The notes under the pieces: generated by a model
Told to the model about the DNA's origin: nothing
Database searches by the model: none
Seen by the model: only the letters and a program-made list of their open reading frames with translations
Shown here: one piece after another, positions 1-19,297 of the stretch
Numbering within the stretch: the stretch's first letter is position 1
How the letters are laid out: each line of letters starts with the position of its first letter
IMG/VR virus record: IMGVR_UViG_3300000117_000041
Coordinates: 28,725 to 48,963 of that record
Source: a virus
Direction: 5' to 3' (one strand)
DNA: 20,239 nucleotides
Position numbers and translations under genes: made by a program

Positions 1-3000
1 CTGTATAGATTGAACCAGAAACATAACTAACATTTTGAAATCCTGCCGATAAGTTTCCAACCGAACCATAGTACAGCCATGGCACTCTTGATTTTGGTGT
101 TAATAAATTTCCTTGATGTTCAATCCATTGTTGTGGATAAACTGAATATTTACTAACAACTGCATTAAGATCTTCACTAAAAGCTATTGTTGTTGAAGTA
201 AAAAACTTTTCAGCATAACCGCCACTACCTTTACCATCTGGATATTGCGCATTAATATTTCCAACATTTGACAAATCTAATGGATTTCTTCCTACTACTT
301 CATATGTTGTAACGCCTGTAGATTGGTTAACATTTCTTCTATTTAAAACATAGTTTCCTTCAGGATATTTTGTTCTATCATATTGATCTATTCTCAATCT
401 ATCGTTAAATGTAAGATATAATGTATTATTTTGATAGTCAAAACCTCCGTGTATTCCAATGAAATATAGAGGCATATCAGCTAAATTAACCCTAGGAGCT
501 TTATGATATTTATCTTTTATATTTAATCTACCATATTCTATTGCTTTTTTAAATAAATCTCTACAACCTATTTCATCTGACAATACTGTAAATTGTTTTG
601 ATGTATCAAACTTTAGTAGCTTAGCATATCTAGAGTCAAAAAAGTACAAACCTGATTCACTAGCTATAACACTATGCATATGTTGTGTACCATACTTTAC
701 AGATATATATTGATGCGACTCAATTGTATCTCCCGATCCAGTAAATAATGTTTGCCCACCCGTGGCATCTGACAAAAATGTTCTTGGATTAACAAGTAAT
801 TGTCCAAATGCATTTTCTTGTACAAAATATATTTCATTATTAAAATTAATCAGTCTATTTATAGATCCGTGTATAGCCTCTACATCATAAAAGTTAAATA
901 TAGGAAACACTCTAAATGCATCGCTTTCTTCTCCAGCTAATTTAGTTTTTGAATAAGCTACTTCATATGGTAAGTCAGTAAATTCACAATCTCTTTTTTT
1001 GACGCTTAAATAGCTTTTTGTATTATTTTCTTGTGAGTATACTGGATTGTAAAACCAATCGTTTGAGAAAGGTGGAGCAGTTTGATCAAATCCTTCTACA
1101 TGATCATTATTACCTAAATTTAAACCACTTCTCATTTCTGTATTAACAAAAGACTCACAAGGAAAAACAATCCATTTAGAATAGCTTTTATCTGGATATG
1201 GTGATGTTGTCATTTGATGAGAGTATATACCTACAAATGTATCTCCGCCAAAAACAGTTGATAAATGATGAATATCATTCCTACCATGTCCCTGTCTAAG
1301 CTGATGTTTATTACCTGCTGCAACCCATCTTGTATTTTCTAATGCGTCAACACTATTACCGCCATATTGATTATTATTTGTTCTGTAAATATTTCCATAA
1401 TAATAATATGGTAAATGTACCTCTCCATGATTACAATCTTCACCATGAGCATTTATGGTTGGTCTTGATGCTTTAGATGCTTTCCAATCTTGATTCATTG
1501 CGCAATATGATGGATCTTTCATTGGCAAATAATCCCACGAACCTTTCCAATCTGTTTGCAGAAGTATTGCTCTTGTTCCCATTTGCAAAGTACTAATAGT
1601 ATCATAGTTAACGTCAGCAGCTTCTAAATCAGCATCTATTTTTCCATACTTCATATAACTTCTCCAAGCTCCAGTATCTATTTTTGCATGTCCTAATGTA
1701 AAATTTGAAAATCCTGGTCTACTCCAAATGTACTGATTATTATTTGAAGTGTATGTTTGTTTAAAAAAACCAGAAGCAACTATTTCACCGTCTACTATCT
1801 CTTTACCTCTAACTATTTGTCTTTCGTACCAAGGAACAAAACTACTTATATTGCCACTCCACCCAGTAGCTAAGGATATTGTTGTACTTCCGTTTGGATT
1901 TATAGGTGACGTATAGTTAGCAGTCACGCCATCAACCGTACCTTTTGCCGAATCTATTGAACCTGGATTATGAACATACTGGGCATGACCATTGTACTTA
2001 TTATAATGTTGGTCGCCATTAAAATGACCATGATCTGTATACAAAGCAAAATATGGATCAAAAACATAAAGTTTTCCCACTAAAGCTCCTGCTTTTTTAT
2101 CTGTCAACGTTGTTTTCTTTGAAGAAAAAAACAATGTGTCATGTTGATTTTTTGAAGCATAATCGGTAAAAGGATTGTAAGAAGTATTAGCATGACCTAT
2201 AGATATATCGTTAATCGTGTTTCCATCATTCATGTCCGCATGATGATCGTACCTCCTTTGATCGTACAGTTTCATTACAGAAACTATTTTTAATTTGTCT
2301 TCTGCTCTTGATAAATAAGGTCTTATTCCAAAAGTGCTATCTGGAGAATACATAAGATGTATATTTCCTATAGTATTTACATTTAATGCAGGGCCTGCTG
2401 GACTACCAGAACCGCCACCATTTCTCCTTCCCATACTAAAACTTCCAAAATATCCTGATCCAGCATGAAAATTATCACCAACAGAACTATCGCCTTCATT
2501 AAGATATAAAGGTTCTTTGTCGTCAGTAAACCCAACACATCTTGTACTTAATTCTGCTAACCCTACATAACCATTTAAAACTTGATCATATATTTGATCT
2601 ACATTATCATCTATTATATTTTCTGTATCATTAGCATTTACTGTACCGTAATAGCCACCGCTACCACCAGCCGCAGGGCCATAGTTTATTGTTTGATTTA
2701 ATAAACCTGATTGAACAATTGTTCTATCTGTTTCTGTTCTTTCTGCTCGTACAACTTGAAATCCAGAAATTCTTTTTAATACATGTAAAGGTATTTTAAA
2801 ACTAAAATCTAAAGCTAAATCAAATGTAAGATGCTGACCTTCTCTATTTTCAGGAAGAAAACCAAAACGTTTTGCATTACCATGTGAATTTATATCTGTT
2901 CCATTTATACATGCAGTATCATCATATTTTAAACCAGCCGCAGGAACAGGGCCACTTCCATTTGCAGATATTCTATAATCTTGACAATCAGAATTTTCTT

Positions 3001-5026
3001 TAAATCTTGTTGCACCAGATCCATAATTTCTTCCAATACCTGTTATAGTCCCATCGTTATCTGGACCAAAATTTAAATCTAACTCCCATGCTTTATCGTG
3101 ATGTTCTGGCATTTGTATATCTCCTATCCATAAAACATTTCCAGGATCACCATTTAAATCATAAACTAAAACTCCAAATCTATATGTTTCTCCTCTTTGA
3201 TAACCTCTTTTACTACCAGCAGCCATAGGATCTTTGTTTGAACCTATATTTAATGTTGCAGTAAACTCTGTTGATGTATTATCTTCTGATGATTCATAAT
3301 CAGGAGGACCACCTGCCTTCCATATGTTATCAGTTTGGAAGCTATCATTTTTTATATTAGTAGATATAAATGCAGAATTACCATCATTTTTTCCTCCCCT
3401 GTTATCTATTGTGTCTGATACTTTAGGCACCTGTCTAAATGAAACCATACAACCACCCAGACCATTTGTACCACCTTCATTTTGATAATAACCATAGCTT
3501 TCTGCACCTAACACTCTTCTTTCTCCATTGCCACCCATATTTGAAAAAACATCATTGCTGTATAAACAGCTATGCGTGCCCCTAAGGTATCTATGTGCTG
3601 TATCATAATTAAAACCTTTACCATCTAAAGGAACATAGTTTGATCCACCCGATACTTCAGTTACAAGTGTTTCATCTAAAACCTCAGCGGATAATTGTGC
3701 AGCTGGTGCATAATATTCTTTTACTTCTGGATCATTTGTTGTCAACGAACCATGTCCAATTACGGTAGGATTATCTTTACTATCCTGATTAAATCTTCTA
3801 ACTTTAACATTCCATTCTTTTTCAGAAATATAATTTCTTTTTTGTCTCAAGTTAGCAGCAAATAATACATTGTCTTTTATTGCAATATCTTTACATATAT
3901 CCCAAGTATTAGAAGGTATAAGTATTTTTTCTAAACCATCTGCAATAACATCAAGCAATGTTGTGTGTTTAAAATTAACTACACCTGAGTTAGGTATAGA
4001 TTTTTTAACCACCTCTGTAACTTGTGGAGGAACATTTAAATTGTTATAAAATAATGCGTAAATCTGCACTTGATCAAAATCAGTATCTAAATCTTTAATA
4101 CTTAGTTCGAATCCATCAGCAGATATAGATCCTGGAGCTCCACCTTGATATGTGCTATATGAAGTACTGTCTGCGTCTGATATATGGTATAAATTACTTG
4201 TTGGAGATATTCCCGTTTCTGCTCCTGCGTCTGTCAAATATTTATAACAGTATTGATATACACCTACTGGTAAGCTACCAGATATAACATTGCTTAAAAC
4301 TATTTGTGAGTGATCGCATTTAGGTGTAATATCTAATTCATCAGGATTTAAAGTTTCTAATCTTTTACCTCTTATATTTAAAGTTCTAAGTGGGTTTTTA
4401 TTATCAGTCCAATAAATTCTAGAAATACAATCATTTTCTGTAATACCCTCAACTCTACACTTAATTAAAGGATCCATGTTTAGATTAGGAAATTCATTGC
4501 CTAAAAAATCATAACAAACTCTAAGCTCAGTTGTTTTAATAACGTTGTTGTCATTATCAAAATCTAATAAAAAGAAAAGTGTTTTAAAATCATCAATAGA
4601 TGGTGATGTACCTATAAGACCACACACAATAAGAACTAATTGATTTTTAAATGAAAAATGCCCTACAATATTTACAGCATCTTTCAAAGACTTATTTTCA
4701 GTAGTTGTGCCGTCACCATCACCTACACCGTATGGTTTAATTGGATCTCCATTCGCATCAGTAGCTCCTACAAAATAGTCATAACTAAAAGGACTTGTTA
4801 CTGGATCTCCATTATATAAATAGTCTGCCTTGCTTACTATATTGGTATCTGTTAAATCAATAACCTTTTTATTACCGTTTATGTTTTCAATAGTAAAAGT
4901 CGATCCATCTGTATTGATCACTTTTATATTCATTGCATCACGATACGTCCCGTCCAATTGCATTCTTGGATCAGAATCAGTAACTAAGCCTTTACTAAAT
5001 CCTTTTAATTTGCTTTTCTCTGCCAT
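1..5026 (-). CDS. Giant tail stabilisation / muzzle-like protein, 3' end outside window
   Basis: One frame stays open from the ATG at 5026 to the left edge: 1,675 codons checked line by line without an in-frame stop. The N terminus is a Lys-rich stretch followed by a segment of the type DSDPRMQ..DGTYRDAMNI (about residues 17-34) and then IENINGN (46-52). This resembles the start of the very large tail stabilisation proteins of crAss-like phages, which form the distal 'muzzle' of the tail. The rest is rich in Asn, Gly, Tyr, Asp and Thr, as expected for a beta-structured virion protein, with no membrane segment or obvious coiled coil. The start codon shares one base with the stop of the upstream ring-type gene (TAATG), so the two are probably translationally coupled. 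Function is inferred from position, size and the N-terminal motif. A tail fibre or tailspike is the main alternative. Confidence 0.75.
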   Translation of the reverse strand, partial: MAEKSKLKGFSKGLVTDSDPRMQLDGTYRDAMNIKVINTDGSTFTIENINGNKKVIDLTDTNIVSKADYLYNGDPVTSPFSYDYFVGATDANGDPIKPYGVGDGDGTTTENKSLKDAVNIVGHFSFKNQLVLIVCGLIGTSPSIDDFKTLFFLLDFDNDNNVIKTTELRVCYDFLGNEFPNLNMDPLIKCRVEGITENDCISRIYWTDNKNPLRTLNIRGKRLETLNPDELDITPKCDHSQIVLSNVISGSLPVGVYQYCYKYLTDAGAETGISPTSNLYHISDADSTSYSTYQGGAPGSISADGFELSIKDLDTDFDQVQIYALFYNNLNVPPQVTEVVKKSIPNSGVVNFKHTTLLDVIADGLEKILIPSNTWDICKDIAIKDNVLFAANLRQKRNYISEKEWNVKVRRFNQDSKDNPTVIGHGSLTTNDPEVKEYYAPAAQLSAEVLDETLVTEVSGGSNYVPLDGKGFNYDTAHRYLRGTHSCLYSNDVFSNMGGNGERRVLGAESYGYYQNEGGTNGLGGCMVSFRQVPKVSDTIDNRGGKNDGNSAFISTNIKNDSFQTDNIWKAGGPPDYESSEDNTSTEFTATLNIGSNKDPMAAGSKRGYQRGETYRFGVLVYDLNGDPGNVLWIGDIQMPEHHDKAWELDLNFGPDNDGTITGIGRNYGSGATRFKENSDCQDYRISANGSGPVPAAGLKYDDTACINGTDINSHGNAKRFGFLPENREGQHLTFDLALDFSFKIPLHVLKRISGFQVVRAERTETDRTIVQSGLLNQTINYGPAAGGSGGYYGTVNANDTENIIDDNVDQIYDQVLNGYVGLAELSTRCVGFTDDKEPLYLNEGDSSVGDNFHAGSGYFGSFSMGRRNGGGSGSPAGPALNVNTIGNIHLMYSPDSTFGIRPYLSRAEDKLKIVSVMKLYDQRRYDHHADMNDGNTINDISIGHANTSYNPFTDYASKNQHDTLFFSSKKTTLTDKKAGALVGKLYVFDPYFALYTDHGHFNGDQHYNKYNGHAQYVHNPGSIDSAKGTVDGVTANYTSPINPNGSTTISLATGWSGNISSFVPWYERQIVRGKEIVDGEIVASGFFKQTYTSNNNQYIWSRPGFSNFTLGHAKIDTGAWRSYMKYGKIDADLEAADVNYDTISTLQMGTRAILLQTDWKGSWDYLPMKDPSYCAMNQDWKASKASRPTINAHGEDCNHGEVHLPYYYYGNIYRTNNNQYGGNSVDALENTRWVAAGNKHQLRQGHGRNDIHHLSTVFGGDTFVGIYSHQMTTSPYPDKSYSKWIVFPCESFVNTEMRSGLNLGNNDHVEGFDQTAPPFSNDWFYNPVYSQENNTKSYLSVKKRDCEFTDLPYEVAYSKTKLAGEESDAFRVFPIFNFYDVEAIHGSINRLINFNNEIYFVQENAFGQLLVNPRTFLSDATGGQTLFTGSGDTIESHQYISVKYGTQHMHSVIASESGLYFFDSRYAKLLKFDTSKQFTVLSDEIGCRDLFKKAIEYGRLNIKDKYHKAPRVNLADMPLYFIGIHGGFDYQNNTLYLTFNDRLRIDQYDRTKYPEGNYVLNRRNVNQSTGVTTYEVVGRNPLDLSNVGNINAQYPDGKGSGGYAEKFFTSTTIAFSEDLNAVVSKYSVYPQQWIEHQGNLLTPKSRVPWLYYGSVGNLSAGFQNVSYVSGSIYT

Positions 5027-6039
5027 TAATAACTATTTAATCCATCATACAACGGTGGGTTGTGCGATGTGATTGGAACTTTTGCGTTCCATATTTTACC
5101 TATTTTTAATAATTCTAATGAAGAAGGCATGTTATCATCACCTCTTACTTTAGCGCAAAGATGATACCATCTTCTCTCTAAATCTTTTATTATGTATTGT
5201 GGTGCATTACCAGCATAGTAATCTATAGACTTGTGTTTCCACATAATGTAAAACGCTACAGCCTCTTCGTGCCCCTGTCTTACTGTTGGGTATCCATTCT
5301 CGTCCGTGTGCGCGCGCAGGTAAGATATTACTACATCTTTACTATATTTTCTTGAAAAATTTAACCTATTACCTTCTACATAATATCTATCCTGTTGATC
5401 GCTTATCTTGCTTCTAAACTGCGAACTAGATGGCTCAATAATATTATCGCCAACTCTGACATTTAACAACTTGACTAAATCGTTAGGTAGCGTGATTTGT
5501 TTGTTTTGTATTCTGTTTTTAGCACCTGTAAATCTTTGTGTTATTTCAGGAGCGTCAGAAACATCCAACTCTATAATAATAGGATTAGCTTGAAATCCAG
5601 CACTAATAGTAAGTTCTAAAATATTAGTACCAGTTGTGTATGACGCATTTATACCTTTTGCATTTTTTAAATACGATCCATCTATAACCGATACTGCATT
5701 ATCAAGCGTAGTGTCTAGATCAGCACCTATGGGTATTTCATGTGTTTCTGCTGTTGTTCCTACATAAGCAGAGCTACTTAGAAGCCTAAATACAAACTTA
5801 GTTCCATTAATTGTTATAGATTGTTTGTCTAAGGAATTATCAGTAAATTTTATTTTAGCAACTTGTGAGGCTGCTTCTGTAGCATAGGTTCTTTCAGCTC
5901 TTTCAAACGTATCTTTACTACCAATATATTGTTCTGCCTCAAACACCCATTCAGCCCAAGAATCTACATGTTTATTGTATTCTCTTAAGCCTAAGTTTCT
6001 AGAAACATTGTTAAATACTCTAAATGCGGATACTCTCAT
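5026..6039 (-). CDS. Ring / tail-tubular-type neck protein with inserted domain
   Basis: A 337-aa protein. The N terminus is helical, with DSWAEWVFEAEQYIGS near residues 26-41. The C-terminal part has a beta segment (ITLPNDLVKLLNVRVGDN, about 182-199), then YYVEGNRLNFS (about 219-229) and a helix beginning GHEEAVAFYIMWK (about 256-268). This split resembles crAss-like ring proteins that stack below the portal, related to P22 gp4-type tail accessory factors. Between the halves, residues about 55-172 form a Thr/Ala/Ile-rich beta-type segment with ITINGTKFVF, which looks like an extra domain. The gene begins just after the TAG stop of the 162-aa gene and its own stop overlaps the ATG of the giant tail protein. 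The structural role is fairly secure; the exact ring position cannot be told from sequence. Confidence 0.7.
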   Translation of the reverse strand: MRVSAFRVFNNVSRNLGLREYNKHVDSWAEWVFEAEQYIGSKDTFERAERTYATEAASQVAKIKFTDNSLDKQSITINGTKFVFRLLSSSAYVGTTAETHEIPIGADLDTTLDNAVSVIDGSYLKNAKGINASYTTGTNILELTISAGFQANPIIIELDVSDAPEITQRFTGAKNRIQNKQITLPNDLVKLLNVRVGDNIIEPSSSQFRSKISDQQDRYYVEGNRLNFSRKYSKDVVISYLRAHTDENGYPTVRQGHEEAVAFYIMWKHKSIDYYAGNAPQYIIKDLERRWYHLCAKVRGDDNMPSSLELLKIGKIWNAKVPITSHNPPLYDGLNSY

Positions 6040-6040
6040 A

Positions 6041-6529
6041 CTATGCTGTTGTTGCTATTAATACTTCTACTTGTACGTTTGCTGAATCTGCTCTTAAAAA
6101 TATTTCATCTATAGCCCCACCTCTTGCAGTAACTGCTGTACCACCAGCGTTTGCTTCAATATCTGTAGATGTTAAAATAAAACTTGCATCTGGATCTACA
6201 GTAATACCTGCAACATCACCGCCTGTGTCCTCTAAGATAACTCCTACCGCATTAGTATCATCAAGATTGGTTATTCTAATGTATTCTACAGCAGATCTTT
6301 TAAAAGCTCCAGGAGCTCCAGCTTCACTACCATTATCTACTAAATCAACAATCTTTACTTGATTTGTATTTGGTAAATTCAAGATACGAACATCAATATT
6401 ATCTATGCTTGCAAAAGTTTTAGTTAATGTCTGTGCGTGTGATCTATTGTCAGCAGAAGTGTTGTGTGTTACAGACAATGCCTCTGTGATGGTTACTGTT
6501 AATGTTCCTGCTGTTAATCTACTTGCCAT
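6041..6529 (-). CDS. Beta-rich virion-like protein, unknown function
   Basis: A 162-aa protein with short alternating hydrophobic segments rich in Thr, Val, Ala and Asp. Lys and aromatic residues are scarce, and there is no signal peptide or membrane helix. The C-terminal half (about residues 75-160) reads like a beta-sandwich: VEYIRITNLDDTNAVGVI, then SFILTSTDIEA, then EIFLRADSANVQVEVLIA. That pattern is common in small phage head-fibre, decoration and neck proteins. It lies between the HU/IHF-like gene and a ring-type gene; the ATG is one base past the upstream TAA, and the TAG stop is one base before the next ATG. The position suggests a tail or neck component, but I cannot place it in a named family. 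Confidence 0.6.
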   Translation of the reverse strand: MASRLTAGTLTVTITEALSVTHNTSADNRSHAQTLTKTFASIDNIDVRILNLPNTNQVKIVDLVDNGSEAGAPGAFKRSAVEYIRITNLDDTNAVGVILEDTGGDVAGITVDPDASFILTSTDIEANAGGTAVTARGGAIDEIFLRADSANVQVEVLIATTA

Positions 6530-6530
6530 T

Positions 6531-6977
6531 TTATGTAGTTTTTAATTTTTTAATTTCTTCTCTAAATATACCTAACGGCATAATTTTACATTTACTATAT
6601 TTTTTTGGTCGTTTCCAAACAACCTTGTAATAATAATCATCTAGTATGGGTACTTTGTATTTAACAAGCTCTCCCTTAGCGTTAGACTCATTTATATCTA
6701 CACGATAATGAAAAGCTCTTCTGTGATGTTTCTTGTCTAAATACAAGTAACCCATATCTCCAGGCAAATGAATTAGATCATTTTTTTGTACTAAATCTCT
6801 TGCCAGTATTTCAAAAAACTTTTTGATTACAGCATAATATGTTTTGTAATCAAGTTGTTTTTCCCTAAACTTTTTTTGTCCCTTCAACCAATCTCCCTTG
6901 ACTGTTACAACTTTTTTTATATTGTTGTATATATCTCTAGCCGTTTCGTATTTATCTCTGTGCTTGCGGCTGAACAT
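6531..6977 (-). CDS. Small basic HU/IHF-like protein of the structural module
   Basis: A 148-aa basic protein. A helix (YAVIKKFFEILARDLVQKND, about 48-67) leads into a beta segment with LIHLPGDMGYLYL (68-80). This order resembles the helix-then-hairpin start of HU/IHF proteins, where an LPG-type turn precedes a Gly-containing strand. The C-terminal part YYYKVVWKRPKKY (about 115-127) followed by FREEIKKL (138-145) is typical of a small protein that recurs between tail genes in crAss-like and other Bacteroidota phages, some annotated as IHF subunits. It may bind DNA or be a neck component; the sequence does not decide. The ATG lies 26 bp inside the end of the 299-aa gene in another frame, and no later Met could serve as an alternative start. 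Confidence 0.6.
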   Translation of the reverse strand: MFSRKHRDKYETARDIYNNIKKVVTVKGDWLKGQKKFREKQLDYKTYYAVIKKFFEILARDLVQKNDLIHLPGDMGYLYLDKKHHRRAFHYRVDINESNAKGELVKYKVPILDDYYYKVVWKRPKKYSKCKIMPLGIFREEIKKLKTT

Positions 6978-10558: not shown

Positions 10559-12121
10559 TTATGATGCGGATAAAATTCCACAAGATAATGGGTTACGAAC
10601 TATAATTCCAGACTCTGACATAACGTGACACTCAAACTTGTCATCAGCGTTAGCAGACATCATTGATTTTTGATCATAAGGATTGATCATACCAGCAACG
10701 TACTTTTTAATAAAAGAACGGTTAGTACCTTCAGCACCTTTAGTAATCAATTCAATGTTAGATACACCTGAAGTCTTACCGAAATCAAGGAATACCATTT
10801 TAGCAGATTCTTTCAATCGGTTATCACCGAAAGCGTTAGTACCTGAAGCAGCGCTGTGAATGTTTTGATCATCGAATACAGGACAGTAAGCCATTGTAAG
10901 CTTGTTTCCTAATGCTTCGTAAGATACAAAGTTAGCACCTAAAGATACATCTCCACTAACACCAGACATTGATCCACCTGTGAACGATCCAGAAGGAGCG
11001 ATCAATAAGTCTTTCATTGCCTTGTGGAATGCTAAACGTCCTTCAGTACCTGTGAATACAACCCACTCGTTACCTTCAGCGTTAGTAGCATTTAAAGATA
11101 GTTTAGCTAAAAACTCAGTAATAATGTCTTCAGTCAAAGCGCCTAATGTATAAGAAGCTTGGTTAGAAGAATCGATTTGAGCCAATAGACCATCACCTGT
11201 TACAATACTTGATGCTTGAGTACCTGAAGTACCTAAAGAAGAAGTAGAGTAAGCGCCTGGTCTTTGAGCTGTAGTATCAGTAACTGATCTACGACCATAC
11301 CATCTTTGAAGCTCTTGCTGATACATGAACTCATCCATCATCATTTGCTCTTTAGTAAAGTACCATAGACGGTGACCATTGTTCTCGATCCAAGTTACAT
11401 CAGTAAGGTCTTTACCTGTTACTGAACACTTCTTACGCATTGTAGTTAAGAAGTTAGTGTAAGTATCTGGATACACGTAGTTTTCACCTACATCAGCTCC
11501 ATTAGAACCGTTAGGGAAAGCTGAACCAATAGAAGCAACAATTGCTTCGTCAGCAACGTCAGATCTTTTAAGACCAGCTACTACAGATGAACCATCATGA
11601 GCACCAACCATTTCAAACTTAACAATAAAGTCAGTTGCTGCACCTGATGCAGATGTGTTTGCAATAGGATCTTCCAATACTAAAGCTGTAGCTCCAGACT
11701 GGAAACGAACCATGTCAAACTTGTTTAAGAAATCTCCAGTTCTAGCAGCGTCAGTTCCTGCGCCAGTAGTACCATCAACGATTAAGTAGAATACATCTCC
11801 GTTAGCATCTGCAGCTGTGATGAAACCTGCTGTTTCGCCTACTGATCCTGATGCTGTAAATGTAGTTCCATTAGTTGAGAAGTGTCCAGTCATAAAAGAA
11901 GGAGCGTTGTAACGTCCCATTACTTTCCACTCGAAGGAGTTATCTCCTAACACTTTCTCACTTGCATGACGACCTGTCTTCTCTAGAAGATAAGTTGCCG
12001 AATAACGAGGATACTGTTGAATCAACGTTTTTGCAATCTCTGGGTATTGTAAAAGCGCTGTGTTCAAAGCATTCTCAGGTGAAGTTCCAGAACCATAGGT
12101 TCCTTTATAAATTCTTGCCAT
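10559..12121 (-). CDS. Major capsid protein (HK97 fold, crAss-like type)
   Basis: A 520-aa protein, slightly longer than the roughly 490-500 aa usual for crAss-like capsid proteins. The N terminus has a helical arm with TSPENALNTALLQYPEIA and YLLEKTGRHASEKV (about 13-57), then SFEWKVMGRYNAPSF (62-76), a Phe-Glu-Trp then Gly-Arg pattern I associate with crAss-like capsid proteins. Residues about 85-180 form a Gly/Thr-rich beta insertion that may project outward. Next come YPDTYTNFLTTMRKKCSV (217-234) and a long helix with KEQMMMDEFMYQQELQRWYG (257-276). The C terminus contains ECHVMSESGIIVRNPLSCG. It follows a scaffold-like gene, the usual order, and is preceded by an intergenic hairpin. No promoter box was found directly upstream, so it probably depends on the promoter before the scaffold gene. 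Confidence 0.85.
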   Translation of the reverse strand: MARIYKGTYGSGTSPENALNTALLQYPEIAKTLIQQYPRYSATYLLEKTGRHASEKVLGDNSFEWKVMGRYNAPSFMTGHFSTNGTTFTASGSVGETAGFITAADANGDVFYLIVDGTTGAGTDAARTGDFLNKFDMVRFQSGATALVLEDPIANTSASGAATDFIVKFEMVGAHDGSSVVAGLKRSDVADEAIVASIGSAFPNGSNGADVGENYVYPDTYTNFLTTMRKKCSVTGKDLTDVTWIENNGHRLWYFTKEQMMMDEFMYQQELQRWYGRRSVTDTTAQRPGAYSTSSLGTSGTQASSIVTGDGLLAQIDSSNQASYTLGALTEDIITEFLAKLSLNATNAEGNEWVVFTGTEGRLAFHKAMKDLLIAPSGSFTGGSMSGVSGDVSLGANFVSYEALGNKLTMAYCPVFDDQNIHSAASGTNAFGDNRLKESAKMVFLDFGKTSGVSNIELITKGAEGTNRSFIKKYVAGMINPYDQKSMMSANADDKFECHVMSESGIIVRNPLSCGILSAS

Positions 12122-13327: not shown

Positions 13328-15646
13328 CTAAGAATTTTTTATTGTTTCCTGTATCTGTTGTTTTCTCTCTCTAGATACACCGCCCTCAGAAGCTTCTTTA
13401 TTTGCTTGACTGTCCATGTTTTCAGCCTTTTCATCTTTTCGATCTTGTTGATCTAAAGCTTTCTGTAAGTACATTTGTTTGTTTTTAACTAAATGCGCCA
13501 CATCAGCCATTTCTCTTTGATCGTCTGATTTCATATCAGCAATCTTAAGATCTGTTTCAGATTGTATTTGCGCAACTTGTACTTTACCTTCATTTTTAAT
13601 TTGCTCAAGCTGTAAACTTTGTTCATGTTCAGCAGCAGCAGCTTCTTGTTGTGCTTGTGCTAAAGCTTGTTGTTGCTCTTGTTGAGCTTGTTGCTGTTTC
13701 TTCATTTCATCTAAAGCTCTTTCAAGTATATGCTCTGCTTCAGTCATAGTATCAGCTTTCATTACTTTAATAATATCAAGTAATTCAACTTGACCGCTTT
13801 GTAATGCTGATTGTGCAATTTGCTGTACAACTTGTTTAACAGATTCGTCTTTACCACTATCACCAATAAATATACCATAGTCTTGTAAAGCAATGTCTGG
13901 CATTACATCTAAAAACTTGTAAGCACCATCACCAAGAACAATACTAGCTTTTTTTCCACCAGCCCAACAAACCTTCATTAGATTAGTAACTCTTTCAAAC
14001 ACACGTTTCTTAACCATTGCATGCGAATAGAACCAGCTTTCTGTAATAGTAGCAGATTGTACTACACTACGCTGAACATTACCAACATATTCGTATTGAC
14101 CTACAGCTCCTTCACGCTGAGGTGATACACCAGATATTTGACCTGCTGTTTGCTCTAGCATCATCTTTAAGTTAATTAGCTGTTGTACAGACTGTGATAA
14201 AGTAAAGTCAATTTGTTGGAATTGATTAAATGATTGTAACTGTCCACCTTCATCTTTAGAGTTGATCGGTATAATACCATCAGTTTTTAAATGATAAAGG
14301 ACAGATTGTATATCCATACCTATATTAGTAGGTAGTTGTGATACATCATATACTACCGCCTTACCACCAGATCTTGCTAGTGCTAATTCAATTTGATACA
14401 TTACAACATTATACAACATCTGTACGTTCTTAAGTAAAGACACCATAGATACGCTACGACCAGTTGTGTTATTTCTAACTACACCTACATATGACAAAGG
14501 AGTAGAACCTACGTCATCCACCGATCTAACTTGGTTAGGTCTACGTCTTGCTCTTACTAATATCTTGCCACCTATTTTTGTAGCTTCCCAAATATCATCA
14601 ACGTACTTTGTTTGTACAGTTTCATTTTTACGTGCTTTGTAATCATCTGGAACTTGCTTCATAAATGGCCTAGACTCATCATGTTTGTTTTCAGAAATCT
14701 TAAACTTTAAAGCTTTGATTGATTTCCATTCTACATATACAACTCTAATTTTTACTTCGTGACCATCTTCATAATCTAACCAATCAAATGGATCATTATA
14801 AGACGATAGCTCATCCTGCGATCCTACTTGATACATGTCAGAAAGCTCTTGCAGCTGTTCTGCATCAAGCTCATCTCTAAACTCATCAAGTATTTCATTG
14901 TAGTTTAACCATCTTTCTTCACCTACCCAGCTTGATGTATCTAAGTAATCACTATTACCACTTATATCATATACAATAGATCTTGGATCTACTCTACGCA
15001 CAAATGGATTATTATCTCTTACTTCAACACGATAGAACTCTTTACCAGTAATTAAAAGATCTCTAAACCCTTCTTTGAATATATCTCTATAGTTGTATCT
15101 GCTAATCAAATATTCCAAACCATCTTGAGCTGTTTCTTCTACCATCTCACGATAGTTGTATCGCATATACACCTCTATGTCATCAGGAAGCTCCATGTCT
15201 GTTGGTTGAGGTATTTCAAAGCCAACGCTTTTTTGAAAGTCTTTTTGTATATCACCAACAAGCTCTTTCATAATTAGTGATACCTTAACATCTTGCTTTC
15301 TAATTACAGCTTCTTTGTTTACTGTATTAACTTTGATGTCCATAGGTCTTCTAAGATCTTCACCAACTAATAAATCGATCTTAGGCGATATAATAGGATA
15401 GTTAACTAATCTAGCTGGATAAGCCATACCGTATTGTTCGGTAATATATTTGAAGTCATTAAGCTCAATGTGTCCATTGTAAATGTTGTAGTTTTGTATG
15501 TCATGTACTCTTGAGTTTTTGTATGGAGACTCCGAGTATGACATATACCCTACTACTGCATTTATCCATTGATCACACCATTCTTCTGTTTTTTCTTTTT
15601 CTGATATAAAGTGTTGTGGGAATGATGAATACTTCTTATTATCCAT
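13328..15646 (-). CDS. Portal protein (crAss-like type)
   Basis: A 772-aa protein that would form the dodecameric DNA entry ring at the capsid vertex and dock the terminase. The N-terminal region includes PIISPKIDLLVGEDLRRP (about 84-101). The core has DPRSIVYDISGNSDYLD near 220-236. A conserved-looking segment GVSPQREGAVGQYEYVGN, then RSVVQSATITESWF, lies at about 510-545; this pattern is one I associate with crAss-like portals. The length also fits that family. The C-terminal ~130 residues are a Gln/Ala/Lys-rich coiled coil with runs such as QQQAQQEQQQALAQAQQ, probably forming the barrel or crown. The start is 2 nt after the TerL stop. The gene ends in TAG, directly against the next promoter. 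Confidence 0.85.
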   Translation of the reverse strand: MDNKKYSSFPQHFISEKEKTEEWCDQWINAVVGYMSYSESPYKNSRVHDIQNYNIYNGHIELNDFKYITEQYGMAYPARLVNYPIISPKIDLLVGEDLRRPMDIKVNTVNKEAVIRKQDVKVSLIMKELVGDIQKDFQKSVGFEIPQPTDMELPDDIEVYMRYNYREMVEETAQDGLEYLISRYNYRDIFKEGFRDLLITGKEFYRVEVRDNNPFVRRVDPRSIVYDISGNSDYLDTSSWVGEERWLNYNEILDEFRDELDAEQLQELSDMYQVGSQDELSSYNDPFDWLDYEDGHEVKIRVVYVEWKSIKALKFKISENKHDESRPFMKQVPDDYKARKNETVQTKYVDDIWEATKIGGKILVRARRRPNQVRSVDDVGSTPLSYVGVVRNNTTGRSVSMVSLLKNVQMLYNVVMYQIELALARSGGKAVVYDVSQLPTNIGMDIQSVLYHLKTDGIIPINSKDEGGQLQSFNQFQQIDFTLSQSVQQLINLKMMLEQTAGQISGVSPQREGAVGQYEYVGNVQRSVVQSATITESWFYSHAMVKKRVFERVTNLMKVCWAGGKKASIVLGDGAYKFLDVMPDIALQDYGIFIGDSGKDESVKQVVQQIAQSALQSGQVELLDIIKVMKADTMTEAEHILERALDEMKKQQQAQQEQQQALAQAQQEAAAAEHEQSLQLEQIKNEGKVQVAQIQSETDLKIADMKSDDQREMADVAHLVKNKQMYLQKALDQQDRKDEKAENMDSQANKEASEGGVSRERKQQIQETIKNS

Positions 15647-15648
15647 GA

Positions 15649-17469
15649 TTAATCTTTTATTTGTGGTACTCCGTTTCTATCTAATTCGTAATATTTAAAT
15701 CCCCAGTCTTCTACTGGTTCTTCTTTTTCCGATGCTTGCACTCTATAGTTGTCTACATTGTGTATTAAACATAAACCAAAAGCTATAGCTCGGTCAGTAT
15801 TTCTTGTTCCGTATACAGACAATTCTTCTATTAAATCTAAGAACCAAATGTCATCTACGCTTTCTCTTATGTAGTCATCCATTAGATCTTCCATAAGAGC
15901 TTTTACCTGCTTATTCATATGCACACCATATCTATTTCTTGTTTTTGTACCAGGGTTGTGTGCAGACTCTGGTTTTTCTTTTAAATACTTTAACGCATTC
16001 ATACGTTTAAAGTAATCCAATATACCTATCTTGGTATATTCTACTAGCATCTTTGAATTGTAATATATTGCTAGTTTTAAACATCCGTCCCAAAAGTCTT
16101 CTTTTTTATCAGGTCTATCTGTATACTCTGCAATGACTAAGTCATGCGCATGATCAGTATCAAGAAACCTTCTGTATATTATTGCTGATCCCAAAGAATC
16201 AGATGCTCCTGCTTTATCTTGATCGTATGAGTCAATCCCACCTATATCTAAATGGTTGTATTGTGTTTCTGGGTGATGTAGTATTTTATAAGGTCCTTCT
16301 GGATGTGGTCTCCATCTAACTACAAACTCTTCGTTTTCATCAAACTCCCAATCTAAAAATCCTGATTGTATTTGACTTCTGTAATCTTTACTGCCAAGTA
16401 TTCTAGATCTCTGAGCGTTTAACAAAGAGTTATCAAATCTTGCAGTCTTTGTATTTAAGAATGCTTCTTGTACAGTTAGTGGGTAGTTTTGAATATGAAG
16501 GTTGTAAGCTTCTCTATCTCCTGATGCAGAAATATTATCTCTTTCTTCTATAAGTTCTTCCTCTGCTGCGGTAACGTGCTCTTCGCCTGTATCCACGTCA
16601 AAGAATCCATAATAAGCTCTAGACGCTGGGATAAACATAGGCACAAGATTATAAGCATCTGACTCATAATACATGTCCATAAAATCTTTGGAGGCTTTCG
16701 TAATGTCACCACCAGTACCTCCAACTACAGGAACGCCAAACTGTAAGTTCCCGTCCATGAAGCAAGCCTTAGAAGACATATACGCATTCTTTAAATGCTT
16801 GAACTCTCCAGCCTCTTCAAATATCATAAGAGATACACGCTCACCTTTAAATACTTCTGGATTATCCATTGTTCTGCATATTATCGTAGATTGATAACCT
16901 CCTATCTCCCACTTACCATCTTTGTTCTTTTGCTTGTATCCAGATCGTAATATACCGTCTGTATCTTTAAGAACAGAGTGCTTGAAGTTGGAGTGTAGTC
17001 CATTCAAACCTTTTTTAGTTTTATCAAAGAACGCATCTGCTGTAGCTTGCAGACCAGCTGCTATACCTACATCATTAAATGGAAAGAACGTATACTCATG
17101 CGCAATCATCCCAGAGTTCATGTAACTAAAACCTTTATCACGGGCTTTGATCACAATCATACCTGTTCCATCTTCTTTACATTGCTCAAACGTATCAAAG
17201 TATTCATGATCCATTTGACGATACCAGGGACTTATTAAAGTTTTACGTGATCCTGTTGAACCATCGTTTCCGAGTATCTTGTAATAATTCAAGTAAAAAT
17301 AATATTTACCTGATATTTTATTCATTCCTTTGGGTTTAAAGCCATTGATACATCTATCAAGCTCTTGTTCCCAATATTCTTGGTAAGCTACAGAGTCAGG
17401 GCTAAGATCAGGATGACCATGATTTGCAACTGGCCTATACCTTTGTGGATCTTTTTTTGCTCTACCCAT
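15649..17469 (-). CDS. Terminase large subunit (TerL)
   Basis: A 606-aa ATP-driven DNA packaging motor with headful or site-specific nuclease. The ATPase domain has a deviant Walker A, KARDKGFS (108-115), in place of GKS/T; KAR-type loops are known in crAss-like terminases. Walker B is SLMIFEEA (213-220) with the catalytic Glu at 218 or 219, and VPVVGGTGG (247-255) is the probable motif III. The nuclease domain shows the acidic set of an RNase H fold: GIDSYD (411-416), LVEYTK (475-480) and NTDRAIA (557-563). It is shorter than the roughly 700 aa of many gut crAss-like TerLs. Its start overlaps the stop of the 72-aa gene by 8 bp, and the portal follows after 2 nt. No small terminase subunit is recognisable nearby, which is common in this group. 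Confidence 0.9.
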   Translation of the reverse strand: MGRAKKDPQRYRPVANHGHPDLSPDSVAYQEYWEQELDRCINGFKPKGMNKISGKYYFYLNYYKILGNDGSTGSRKTLISPWYRQMDHEYFDTFEQCKEDGTGMIVIKARDKGFSYMNSGMIAHEYTFFPFNDVGIAAGLQATADAFFDKTKKGLNGLHSNFKHSVLKDTDGILRSGYKQKNKDGKWEIGGYQSTIICRTMDNPEVFKGERVSLMIFEEAGEFKHLKNAYMSSKACFMDGNLQFGVPVVGGTGGDITKASKDFMDMYYESDAYNLVPMFIPASRAYYGFFDVDTGEEHVTAAEEELIEERDNISASGDREAYNLHIQNYPLTVQEAFLNTKTARFDNSLLNAQRSRILGSKDYRSQIQSGFLDWEFDENEEFVVRWRPHPEGPYKILHHPETQYNHLDIGGIDSYDQDKAGASDSLGSAIIYRRFLDTDHAHDLVIAEYTDRPDKKEDFWDGCLKLAIYYNSKMLVEYTKIGILDYFKRMNALKYLKEKPESAHNPGTKTRNRYGVHMNKQVKALMEDLMDDYIRESVDDIWFLDLIEELSVYGTRNTDRAIAFGLCLIHNVDNYRVQASEKEEPVEDWGFKYYELDRNGVPQIKD

Positions 17470-17680
17470 ACTTTATTCTCTTTGTTTTACCTATACCAAA
17501 AGGATCACGTGGATCCTGTTTTGTTTCTAGGTTAGAGTGAAACGCCTCGTCTATATCAAATCCATGTATAGACTTGGCGTAATCACTTACCTGTTTTGCC
17601 TTTCGATAATCACCCTTCTTGTATAGTTTATTATACCTATATCTAAGGTTGTTTAAATCGGGCTTTTTATTTTTAGACAT
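17462..17680 (-). CDS. Small basic protein before TerL, unknown
   Basis: A 72-aa protein rich in Lys, Tyr, Asn and Asp. Residues about 8-38 look helical (NLRYRYNKLYKKGDYRKAKQ), and the C terminus is polar (DPRDPFGIGKTKRIKYG). Its ATG overlaps the stop of the 197-aa gene (TAATG), and its TAG stop lies inside the TerL start region, so all three are probably translated as a coupled set. The position directly before TerL is where a small terminase subunit is often found, but the length is short for one and no helix-turn-helix is evident. No function assigned. Confidence 0.65.
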   Translation of the reverse strand: MSKNKKPDLNNLRYRYNKLYKKGDYRKAKQVSDYAKSIHGFDIDEAFHSNLETKQDPRDPFGIGKTKRIKYG

Positions 17681-18273
17681 TAGTCTAATTGACGATAGCT
17701 TCCGCCTGACTTGTTTTTACCACCGTGTCCGTATGATTTTTTCATCATACCTCCACCCATAAAATCTTTGTCAGCACTACCCATACGGCCTCCGCCATAC
17801 ATCTTTTGATCGTAACGACCACCAGCATCAAACCCAAAACGTTTTTTAAGTCTACGTCTAACGCCACCAAATAATTTTCTTCTTACTTTTTTTTGTGCGC
17901 CAGTAACCTTTTTAACTACGTTTTTAGTTCTTTTAACGTTTCCTTTTATAGCTTTTTTAGCAATTCCTTTAACGCCTCTTACAGCGCTAGCTGCAGTTTT
18001 ACCTGGTCGTCTTAATGGCTTTTTAACCATTTTACCAGCAGTAGCTGCAGCCTTTCCAATTGCACCAGCCCTAAGACGAGCTTTTGCAGCTCTTCGTTTT
18101 GCAATAGCAGCAGCGCTTAATCCACGATCAGCTGTTTTTTTAACTCCTCTAGCTACTTTTTTTACTAATGAACTTGCAGCTGCTTTAGATCCTCTACGGG
18201 AAGCTCTAGCTAATTTAGCGGCTCCTAATTTACTGCCTCTACGTCTTAGCTTACGTCTTAATTTTCTAAACAT
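17680..18273 (-). CDS. Highly basic histone/protamine-like protein
   Basis: A 197-aa protein with 63 Lys/Arg against 6 Asp and no Glu, Cys or Trp. Residues 1-150 are Ala/Lys/Arg-rich with short repeats such as AKKAIKG, VKKVARGVKK and RRRLKKRFG, like histone H1 or bacterial Hc1-type tails and protamine-like viral core proteins. The C-terminal 45 residues differ: Gly/Tyr/Met-rich, with KMYGGGR, MGGGMMKK and YGHGGKNKSGGS. This tail resembles that of the adjacent 52-aa protein. It probably binds nucleic acid; packaging-related condensation or neutralisation of DNA is inference. A membrane-active or internal virion protein is an alternative. The base composition, including an AAA/CGT/AGA mixture, looks like that of its neighbours, so recent transfer is not indicated. 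Confidence 0.65.
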   Translation of the reverse strand: MFRKLRRKLRRRGSKLGAAKLARASRRGSKAAASSLVKKVARGVKKTADRGLSAAAIAKRRAAKARLRAGAIGKAAATAGKMVKKPLRRPGKTAASAVRGVKGIAKKAIKGNVKRTKNVVKKVTGAQKKVRRKLFGGVRRRLKKRFGFDAGGRYDQKMYGGGRMGSADKDFMGGGMMKKSYGHGGKNKSGGSYRQLD

Positions 18274-18294: not shown

Positions 18295-18453
18295 TTAACG
18301 ATGCTGGTTTAGGCGGCCACCAGATTTCATCTTTGTTTTGAGTTTACCTCCGCCATACATTTTGCTTCCCCTAAGCATTTTAAAATCTTGAGCGTCTATA
18401 CGCCCATTTTTATTTTTGTCTAACTTTCGTTGTTTACCTTTTAACTTTGCCAT
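18295..18453 (-). CDS. 52-aa peptide with EF-hand-like calcium-binding loop
   Basis: An intact ORF from ATG at 18453 to TAA at 18297-18295. The ATG shares a base with the upstream stop (TAATG), as at two other junctions in this window. The first half contains LDKNKNGRIDAQDF (residues 11-24), which fits an EF-hand or dockerin-like loop: Asp12, Asn14, Asn16, Gly17, Ile19, Asp20 and Asp23 occupy positions 1, 3, 5, 6, 8, 9 and 12. The second half is basic and Gly-rich: KMYGGGK (31-37) and SGGR (44-47), echoing the end of the neighbouring 197-aa protein. There are 17 Lys/Arg in 52 residues. Similar single-loop peptides occur in some marine phages, to my recollection, without known function. Calcium binding is inferred from the loop alone; a lone loop would probably have to dimerise. 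Confidence 0.7.
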   Translation of the reverse strand: MAKLKGKQRKLDKNKNGRIDAQDFKMLRGSKMYGGGKLKTKMKSGGRLNQHR

Positions 18454-18989
18454 TATTTAATATTTTCTTGTATTTCTTTTTTATTCTCTAAAAATGATAG
18501 CTTTTTATCACCTGCTATTTTTTGTCTTTCTCCCCTTCTTTCAATTGCATCTACAAGAGTCTGTCTGGTTTTGTATATCTTTTCAATACCAATCATTATC
18601 TTCTGCAATCCTTCAGCCGTTTCCTCATCTATATGCATATTGTTCATATAGGTCGTAAACTGACTTATCTTTTTATTAAAAGCAATTAGCTGTTCGTCCA
18701 ATGGATCAAACTGTAATTGTTTGTACTTATCTATTGCTGCAAGTACTTCTGAACGTTTCTCACCATACCAGTCATACTTGTCGTACAAATCCTTGCTAAC
18801 AGCTTTCTTTCTCTCTTCCTCAACAAAGTGTCTGTAAGGACTATCATAGTCACATACAAGTGCTACCCACTTCATTGCTGTTGATCCAAGCTTATCAGCC
18901 TTCAGGACTTTTAAAAACTCTGGAATCCCCGTAACCCCATCGTCATCTTTGAATATGTCCCCCTGCCTATTTAGTTTTAATAAATACAT
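18453..18989 (-). CDS. Conserved pre-terminase protein of Bacteroidota phages, unknown function
   Basis: A 178-aa protein starting at the ATG at 18989. An upstream ATG at 19022 was rejected because it would overlap the previous gene and place a promoter box inside the coding sequence. Residues about 20-75 include GIPEFLKVLKADKLG and KWVALVCDYDSPYRHFVEEE; this 'IPEF ... DY-SPY' arrangement recurs in proteins encoded near the terminase in Bacteroidota phages. The C-terminal half is helical and charged (KKISQFTTYMNNM, GIEKIYKTRQTLVDAIERR), probably a coiled coil. No catalytic motif is visible. A TAnnTTTG box lies 7 nt before the ATG. Confidence 0.65.
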   Translation of the reverse strand: MYLLKLNRQGDIFKDDDGVTGIPEFLKVLKADKLGSTAMKWVALVCDYDSPYRHFVEEERKKAVSKDLYDKYDWYGEKRSEVLAAIDKYKQLQFDPLDEQLIAFNKKISQFTTYMNNMHIDEETAEGLQKIMIGIEKIYKTRQTLVDAIERRGERQKIAGDKKLSFLENKKEIQENIK

Positions 18990-18996
18990 ACTCTGT

Positions 18997-19005
18997 GCAA
19001 AAATA
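18997..19005 (-). promoter_or_regulatory. TAnnTTTG promoter box, 7 nt before the ATG
   Basis: Minus strand TATTTTTGC, matching TAnnTTTGY, placed between the stop of the 95-aa gene and the ATG at 18989. The same core and the same 7-nt distance occur at the 299-aa gene. No TTG at proper -33 spacing; the nearest is only 14 nt upstream of the box. Confidence 0.45.
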
Positions 19006-19009
19006 GTAA

Positions 19010-19297
19010 TTATTCTCCACAATATTCTAAATGCATCTCATATAACCAAATCCATCGCCCTCCGTTAGGTTGGGACAATGTATAGTTACCATCAAAACTA
19101 ATACAATAATTAGGATTTTCTACTTGAAATATCTTAGTGTCGGAAACGTCAAACTCCATTTTTTTACATTGATCTAACAAGAACTCCTCACTATTCATAA
19201 GGTCTTCTAATTCATCAAAGTATTTCTTAAGTAAGTATAGATTATCATCAAACACCCATATCTCCCCATCATCACTATATAATTTTTCTAAAAGCAT
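19010..19297 (-). CDS. Acidic 95-aa protein, unknown
   Basis: A 95-aa protein rich in Asp, Glu, Leu and aromatic residues, starting MLLEKLYSDDGEIWVFDD. The middle is an acidic helix (LKKYFDELEDLMNSEEFLL, about 23-41), and the C-terminal part looks beta-like (NYCISFDGNYTLSQ, GGRWIWLYEMHLEYCGE). It has three Cys but no metal-site spacing. The size, net negative charge and position at the head of the block could suit a small regulator or inhibitor, but that is a guess. It begins directly after a strong terminator and a promoter box 4 nt before its ATG. Confidence 0.6.
   Translation of the reverse strand: MLLEKLYSDDGEIWVFDDNLYLLKKYFDELEDLMNSEEFLLDQCKKMEFDVSDTKIFQVENPNYCISFDGNYTLSQPNGGRWIWLYEMHLEYCGE

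Follow-up and report, generated by a model that had tools for sequence, protein, structure and literature searches.

Gene content of the locus

The analyzed DNA (the window) is a stretch of 20,239 nucleotides from a viral record (IMG/VR IMGVR_UViG_3300000117_000041, positions 28,725 to 48,963). It contains a packaging/head block, as recognized in an earlier note made from the letters alone; genes for the terminase large subunit (TerL), the portal protein, and the major capsid protein (MCP) lie there. A short gene, whose product is referred to as EF52, lies upstream of TerL in a cassette of small genes. The following features were assigned.

10559..12121 (-): major capsid protein, crassvirus type (PF23898, 3e-38)
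13328..15646 (-): portal protein (phrog_6547, 1e-116; PF16510)
15649..17469 (-): terminase large subunit, crAss-like (phrog_6681, 5e-89; best phage matches Crassvirales)
17462..17680 (-): conserved gene of 72 aa that follows the cassette
17680..18273 (-): 197-aa Lys/Arg/Ala-rich protein, net charge +57, with a Gly-rich tail ending in GGSYRQLD, the same tag as in EF52
18295..18453 (-): EF52 gene including stop, 52 aa, net charge +14; orthologs in contigs L001-L007
18298..18321 (-): C-terminal tag GGRLNQHR, residues 45-52 of EF52, shared with cassette proteins
18364..18453 (-): loop module MAKLKGKQRKLDKNKNGRIDAQDFKMLRGS, residues 1-30, family-specific; predicted helix-loop-helix (pLDDT about 83-89)
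18385..18420 (-): Ca2+-type loop DKNKNGRIDAQD, 12 residues (12-23), matching PS00018, with invariant ligands
18453..18989 (-): conserved gene of crAss type preceding the cassette; 178 aa when counted from the conserved ATG (189 aa in the ORF list, with a TTG start at 19022)

By its TerL the phage is near Crassvirales (about 28-29% identity), and the 178-aa gene showed 26% identity (E = 8e-6) to the crassvirus cr1_1 gene that precedes TerL with one small ORF between. The TTG start of the listed ORF (18453-19022) adds 11 residues; because the relatives begin at the ATG of MYLL (18989), the upstream gene is probably 178 aa long.

EF52 is encoded by an ATG-initiated ORF (18295..18453, minus strand) with the product MAKLKGKQRKLDKNKNGRIDAQDFKMLRGSKMYGGGKLKTKMKSGGRLNQHR. 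The earlier note had placed the gene at 18382-18453; it is indeed there, but this span covers only codons 1-24 and the gene reaches to 18295 on the minus strand. The proposed translational coupling was borne out: the ATG of EF52 overlaps by one base the TAA that ends the preceding ORF (18453..19022), giving TAATG, and this overlap is kept in the relatives. EF52 occupied the same position in seven contigs of the lineage (L001-L007), and its ORF was unbroken in all syntenic relatives where it was seen. The comparison of synonymous and nonsynonymous change suggested in the earlier note was carried out with L003, the most divergent of the syntenic contigs (15 differences, 51 codons), giving an amino acid identity of 0.90, dN of 0.059, and dS of 0.331 (w = 0.18). 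The closer contigs L004-L006 differed at only about five sites, which puts a firm ratio out of reach. Against L003, dN/dS was 0.64 for the 197-aa protein; TerL, portal, and the 189-aa ORF gave 0.05-0.07. Thus, intact in syntenic contigs and with a dN/dS of 0.18, EF52 is, as the earlier note had supposed, a real gene, and it is under purifying selection. PHROG searches with EF52 and the 197-aa protein matched no family, an Rfam search gave no match, and the 197-aa protein had no match among phage records.

Comparison of 80 close relatives by TerL showed a varying set of small genes in the slot that the conserved 178-aa and 72-aa genes flank. They encode EF modules, DUF6321, DUF5872, Gly-rich proteins, the ACY..RYGPKTSAYRSGAMAKCRKVGAANWG module, or the GLYANIHAKRKRG module; in L174, an EF module is fused to the tail of the 197-aa protein of the window. 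The slot upstream of TerL in this lineage is a variable module cassette, which is described here for the first time. An EF ORF before TerL was sought in Crassvirales, Flavobacterium, and Cellulophaga relatives and was found in none; the sole PS00018 match among them, in FpV4, falls in the portal gene and was discarded.

Sequence, conservation, and predicted fold of the loop module

The segment DKNKNGRIDAQDF satisfies PROSITE PS00018 exactly and is the sole match in the six frames of the window. Dinucleotide shuffles gave an expectation of 0.01 matches per window, and the shuffled 52 residues matched at a frequency of 2e-5. Homologues follow the family-specific pattern LxGxQxK[LI]DxNx[ND]...I...DFxxL. 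To avoid circularity, conservation was counted solely at positions outside the search pattern that had retrieved each sequence. At such unforced positions, L4 and Q8 were found in 27/27 sequences each, loop D1, N3, and N/D5 in 14/14 each, and D12 in 20/20. Loop position 8 was I or L, position 9 was D, S, or E, and the first post-loop residue was F or L; position 12 was Asp, not Glu, in every homologue examined. The earlier note had made its claim depend on conserved loop acids in homologues and an unbroken ORF in close relatives, and both were observed. Residues outside the loop are conserved along with the ligands (L.G.Q.K[LI]D.N.[ND]..I...DF), and the L, Q, and K that precede the loop vary no more than the ligands do, so that by its sequence the module forms a separate family and is not simply any EF loop.

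Profile comparisons placed the module close to two known families. Pfam EF-hand_1 scored 20.3 bits with EF52 (cut-off 25.4) and Pfam dockerin (PF00404) 16.3 bits (gathering score 22.9), which is passed by the relative L127 (28.2 bits); PF00404 was matched at E ≤ 0.01 by 34/67 EF proteins. A profile search of the PDB matched dockerin 2vn5 and secretagogin (EF loops). AlphaFold predicted a short helix (6-10) and a long one (21-32) flanking the loop, followed by a tail that looks disordered (mean pLDDT 71, pTM 0.42). All 38 of the 38 Foldseek matches inspected were EF-hand or dockerin entries, or complexes containing such domains. Dockerins gave the lowest rmsd (2vn5, 0.5 Å over 21 columns, 43% identity), with E-values that all exceeded 1 (best 2.7) because the module is short (30 residues). 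The loop very probably folds as predicted.

EF52 shares with type I dockerins (PF00404) a loop with Asp12 followed by an F-type (exit) helix. It differs in having one loop instead of two tandem repeats, in the additional conserved L..Q.K, and in not belonging to a secreted cellulosome enzyme; the phage module is not known to have a cohesin. With EF-hands (PF00036/PF13202, PS00018) it has in common the loop pattern and a predicted helix on either side, and it departs from them in its unpaired loop, Asp12, short predicted entering helix, and a score under the Pfam cut-offs. EF52 thus resembles the dockerin/EF-hand loop but falls outside both families (single loop, Asp12, subthreshold scores). 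Where the earlier note saw a single EF-hand, a half-dockerin or F-hand loop fits at least as well (Asp12, long exit helix, L..Q.K). The EF-type loop itself agrees with that note, in both the PS00018 match and the conserved ligand positions. Binding of a divalent metal in nature is slightly favored over its absence, and it is predicted to be weak because of the Asp at loop position 12 and the lack of a partner loop.

Tandem modules occurred in L130 only (4875-6635), where two copies lie 33 residues apart, a distance similar to that between the repeats of a complete dockerin. The EF proteins of L127 and L029 also hold a different Ca2+-type loop module, FPDLTGDGKVT.ADILKGRGV; DLDKDGNKKESMKSA, carried by L031 and L036, was noted alongside this second module. 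A GxGLQDExxxPGK motif follows the EF module in L015, L017, L056, L083, L098, L114, and L138, which represent two otherwise different phage lineages.

Occurrence and gene context of the module

A scan with the 52-aa query gave 53 viral loci, and an alignment-based scan of viral contigs confirmed the module in at least 465 stretches (465/600 candidates); the earlier note's view that such a peptide would be unusual in a phage does not hold. In 84,980 prokaryotic genomes, scanned with a slightly different pattern, it was confirmed in 4/181 candidates. All four were MAG contigs, one of which equals viral contig L144 in length and match. In metagenomic phages, the module was found alone (35-60 aa) or within larger proteins. 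Among cultured phages, P-SCSP2 cyanophage has a 41-aa homologue, annotated as hypothetical, between its scaffold and capsid genes, and in pelagiphage HTVC023P the module forms the start of a 121-aa protein. P-SCSP1 cyanophages carry a 35-aa module ORF that lacks annotation; it is conserved yet unannotated in 17 matching P-SCSP1 records (e.g. OM416766.1, 32296-32367). The earlier suggestion that such genes are too short for gene calling therefore does not apply to the annotated 41-aa homologue, though the 35-aa one was indeed passed over. The P-SCSP1u virion structure paper, in which the module ORF is unannotated, mentions neither this ORF nor calcium, and the crAss001 structure paper mentions neither calcium nor an EF52-like protein. 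Literature searches yielded no account of the loop module or the C-terminal tag, and a single paper in which DUF5872 or DUF6321 is named.

The module is hosted by T4-like, T7-like, P22-like, and crAss-like phages, and its usual neighbors are genes for terminase, portal, protease, scaffold, or capsid. The gene order is portal-EF-head protease-scaffold-MCP in T4-like phages, TerL-portal-EF-x-MCP in T7-like phages, and TerL-EF-x-portal or EF-TerL-portal in others; in L052, a head-maturation-protease fusion contains the module in its second part. At 36/77 loci, the EF gene was at most two genes from TerL, portal, MCP, protease, or scaffold, and it was closer to head/packaging genes than random genes of the same loci (p about 0.002). 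Of the 22 loci with a gene for one of the mini-modules DUF5872, DUF6321, or LCARG, 19 had it at most two genes from the EF gene, again nearer than random genes. These p-values are indicative only, since loci share lineages, and gene labels are phmmer matches to references named by PHROGs. In L048-L051, a 45-aa module gene points away from the adjoining capsid and tail genes, unlike at other loci. Tape-measure PHROG matches of some larger EF proteins were weak and outside the module (L120, residues 285-385) and were not taken as evidence of function.

EF proteins that stand alone have a basic composition (median charge +0.25 per residue). Counting against a head association, certain of the larger EF proteins are acidic or map outside recognized head blocks (18/77 loci had no recognized neighbor), four tagged proteins of the window phage (see below) are encoded far from the head genes, and the P-SCSP1u virion structure is silent on the module ORF. 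On balance, EF52 is probably associated with the particle or prohead.

A C-terminal tag shared by unrelated small proteins

The earlier note had missed that EF52 and its small neighbors have a C-terminal tag in common. In this lineage, every distinct cassette protein (43/43, from at least five module types) has Q-x-[DRA] as its last three residues (22 QLD, 11 QHD, 3 QHR, and others), typically preceded by GG and an aromatic residue. The wider pattern Q[HLNFKY][DRAS] was found in 45/528 other ORFs of the cassette loci, 43 of which encode mini-module proteins (with flanks not both recognized, or alternative starts) and two TerL. The pattern was drawn up after viewing the sequences and hence describes this lineage; ORFs of unrelated loci, 3/690 of which had it, serve as a fair control. 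The tag codons are mixed (CAA/CAG, TTA/CTT/CTA, GAT/GAC; stops TAA/TAG), and this synonymous variation indicates that the tag is selected at the protein level.

The genome of the window encodes six tagged proteins. Two belong to the cassette, EF52 (QHR) and the 197-aa protein (QLD); the remaining four, encoded at the opposite end of the record, are DUF5872 (QHA), a CRKVGAANW module (QLD), a 58-aa protein (QLS), and DUF6321 (QLS). The genes for DUF6321, the 58-aa protein, the CRKVGAANW module, and DUF5872 are adjacent and tagged in L234 (1584-2607; equal to G000 1584-2607, minus strand). L234 also encodes (2979-5231) a 750-aa protein with an N-terminal signal-like stretch and many degenerate GCTDSTAFNYxxxANTDDGSC repeats. 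The same modules carried no tag in P-SCSP2, HTVC023P, and L047. In the pelagiphage-type contigs L083, L098, L114, L138, L143, and L056, small proteins of different families share other endings (YYKGMID, YYGGMIDI, or DYYKDIM; GGGAAIRGKGFKGVF), which may be the tags of that lineage.

Proposed role of EF52 and alternatives

The most likely reading, at about even odds, is that EF52 is a small basic head-associated protein made of a Ca2+-loop module, a basic Gly/Lys linker, and a C-terminal sorting tag. Residues 1-30 would form a virus-specific half-dockerin/EF-type Ca2+-loop module; the tag, ending in Q-[HL]-[DRAS], is one that other, unrelated small basic module proteins of the same phage also bear. 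During prohead assembly, the tag would bring these proteins together at a shared docking site, most likely on a component of the inner head or the portal, and the basic linker of EF52 would touch DNA. A sorting or docking function of the tag is slightly more likely than not. The loop would fold around Ca2+ (or Mg2+), making the module rigid in the particle and looser in the cell. Both ions are plentiful in seawater and free Ca2+ is scarce in the bacterial cytoplasm. A weak site of this kind (Asp12, unpaired) would therefore be occupied in the particle but vacant in the cell.

Several known systems resemble parts of this scheme. Encapsulins load cargo into an HK97-fold shell by C-terminal cargo peptides; they are a cellular system, likened to the EF52 tag by the C-terminal position and the proposed loading, not by sequence. 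DUF5872 (PF19197) and DUF6321 (PF19846) are small basic modules found in the gene clusters of EF52 and bearing the same tag in the lineage; they differ from EF52 in sequence family, and DUF6321 has conserved cysteines whereas EF52 has none. In phage T4, the capsid targeting sequence is a short terminal peptide that can be transferred to unrelated proteins, which it then guides to the core of the head (PMC10229621). The tag of T4 internal proteins is N-terminal and cleaved by gp21, whereas that of the EF52 lineage is C-terminal and has a putative sorting role. The small ejected T7 proteins gp6.7 and gp7.3 reside inside the head or tail and link core or tail parts and DNA (PMC11784390); they are like EF52 in size and setting only, and no sequence similarity is claimed.

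The strongest alternative, which we consider rather unlikely, is that the small tagged proteins exert their effect in the cell during late infection, for instance in chaperoning, packaging, or regulation through binding to TerL, portal, or DNA, with the tag targeting a cellular or phage enzyme and not the particle. The position of the EF52 slot immediately upstream of TerL and the location of the other tagged cluster outside the head block would agree with this, whereas the module within the head-maturation-protease fusion and its place between the portal and head protease genes of T4-like phages point to the prohead. An improbable second alternative takes the loop as a rigid, metal-independent, dockerin-like turn for protein-protein docking. 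The strictly conserved L..Q.K before the loop is not a set of metal ligands and hence likely provides a partner surface, the lowest rmsd was to dockerins, and L130 has two copies like a full dockerin. Against metal independence, loop positions 1, 3, 5, 9, and 12 are oxygen-bearing in nearly all homologues while 2, 4, 10, and 11 drift, and dockerins themselves bind Ca2+. Modules do swap within one slot, as in the L174 fusion, and the tag could be a functionless remnant of such shuffling by recombination at gene 3' ends; its retention as protein with mixed synonymous codons and its presence on unlinked genes of one genome make this highly improbable. A chance or spurious ORF, as its shortness and weak Pfam score might suggest, is refuted by the conserved loci, the w value, the PS00018 match, and the invariant loop ligands.

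Returning to the proposed tagged head protein, a broader and rather unlikely extension is that aquatic phages own a toolbox of tiny interchangeable basic modules (Ca2+-loop, DUF5872, DUF6321, and others) and that a given lineage marks all of its modules by one C-terminal docking peptide particular to it. Mini-proteins without structural relationship would in this way enter one and the same particle, and such peptides would constitute a C-terminal cargo-loading code of tailed phages, with the Ca2+ loop as a seawater/cytoplasm switch.

With this analysis, an overlooked small ORF becomes one of a recurrent class of portable mini-modules in the head blocks of abundant aquatic phages (cyanophages, pelagiphages, and crAss-like phages), nearly all of them unannotated or hypothetical. 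The tag shared by unrelated proteins makes it testable whether tailed phages use C-terminal sorting peptides for loading small proteins, and it offers a natural short tag with a defined cargo panel for capsid loading.
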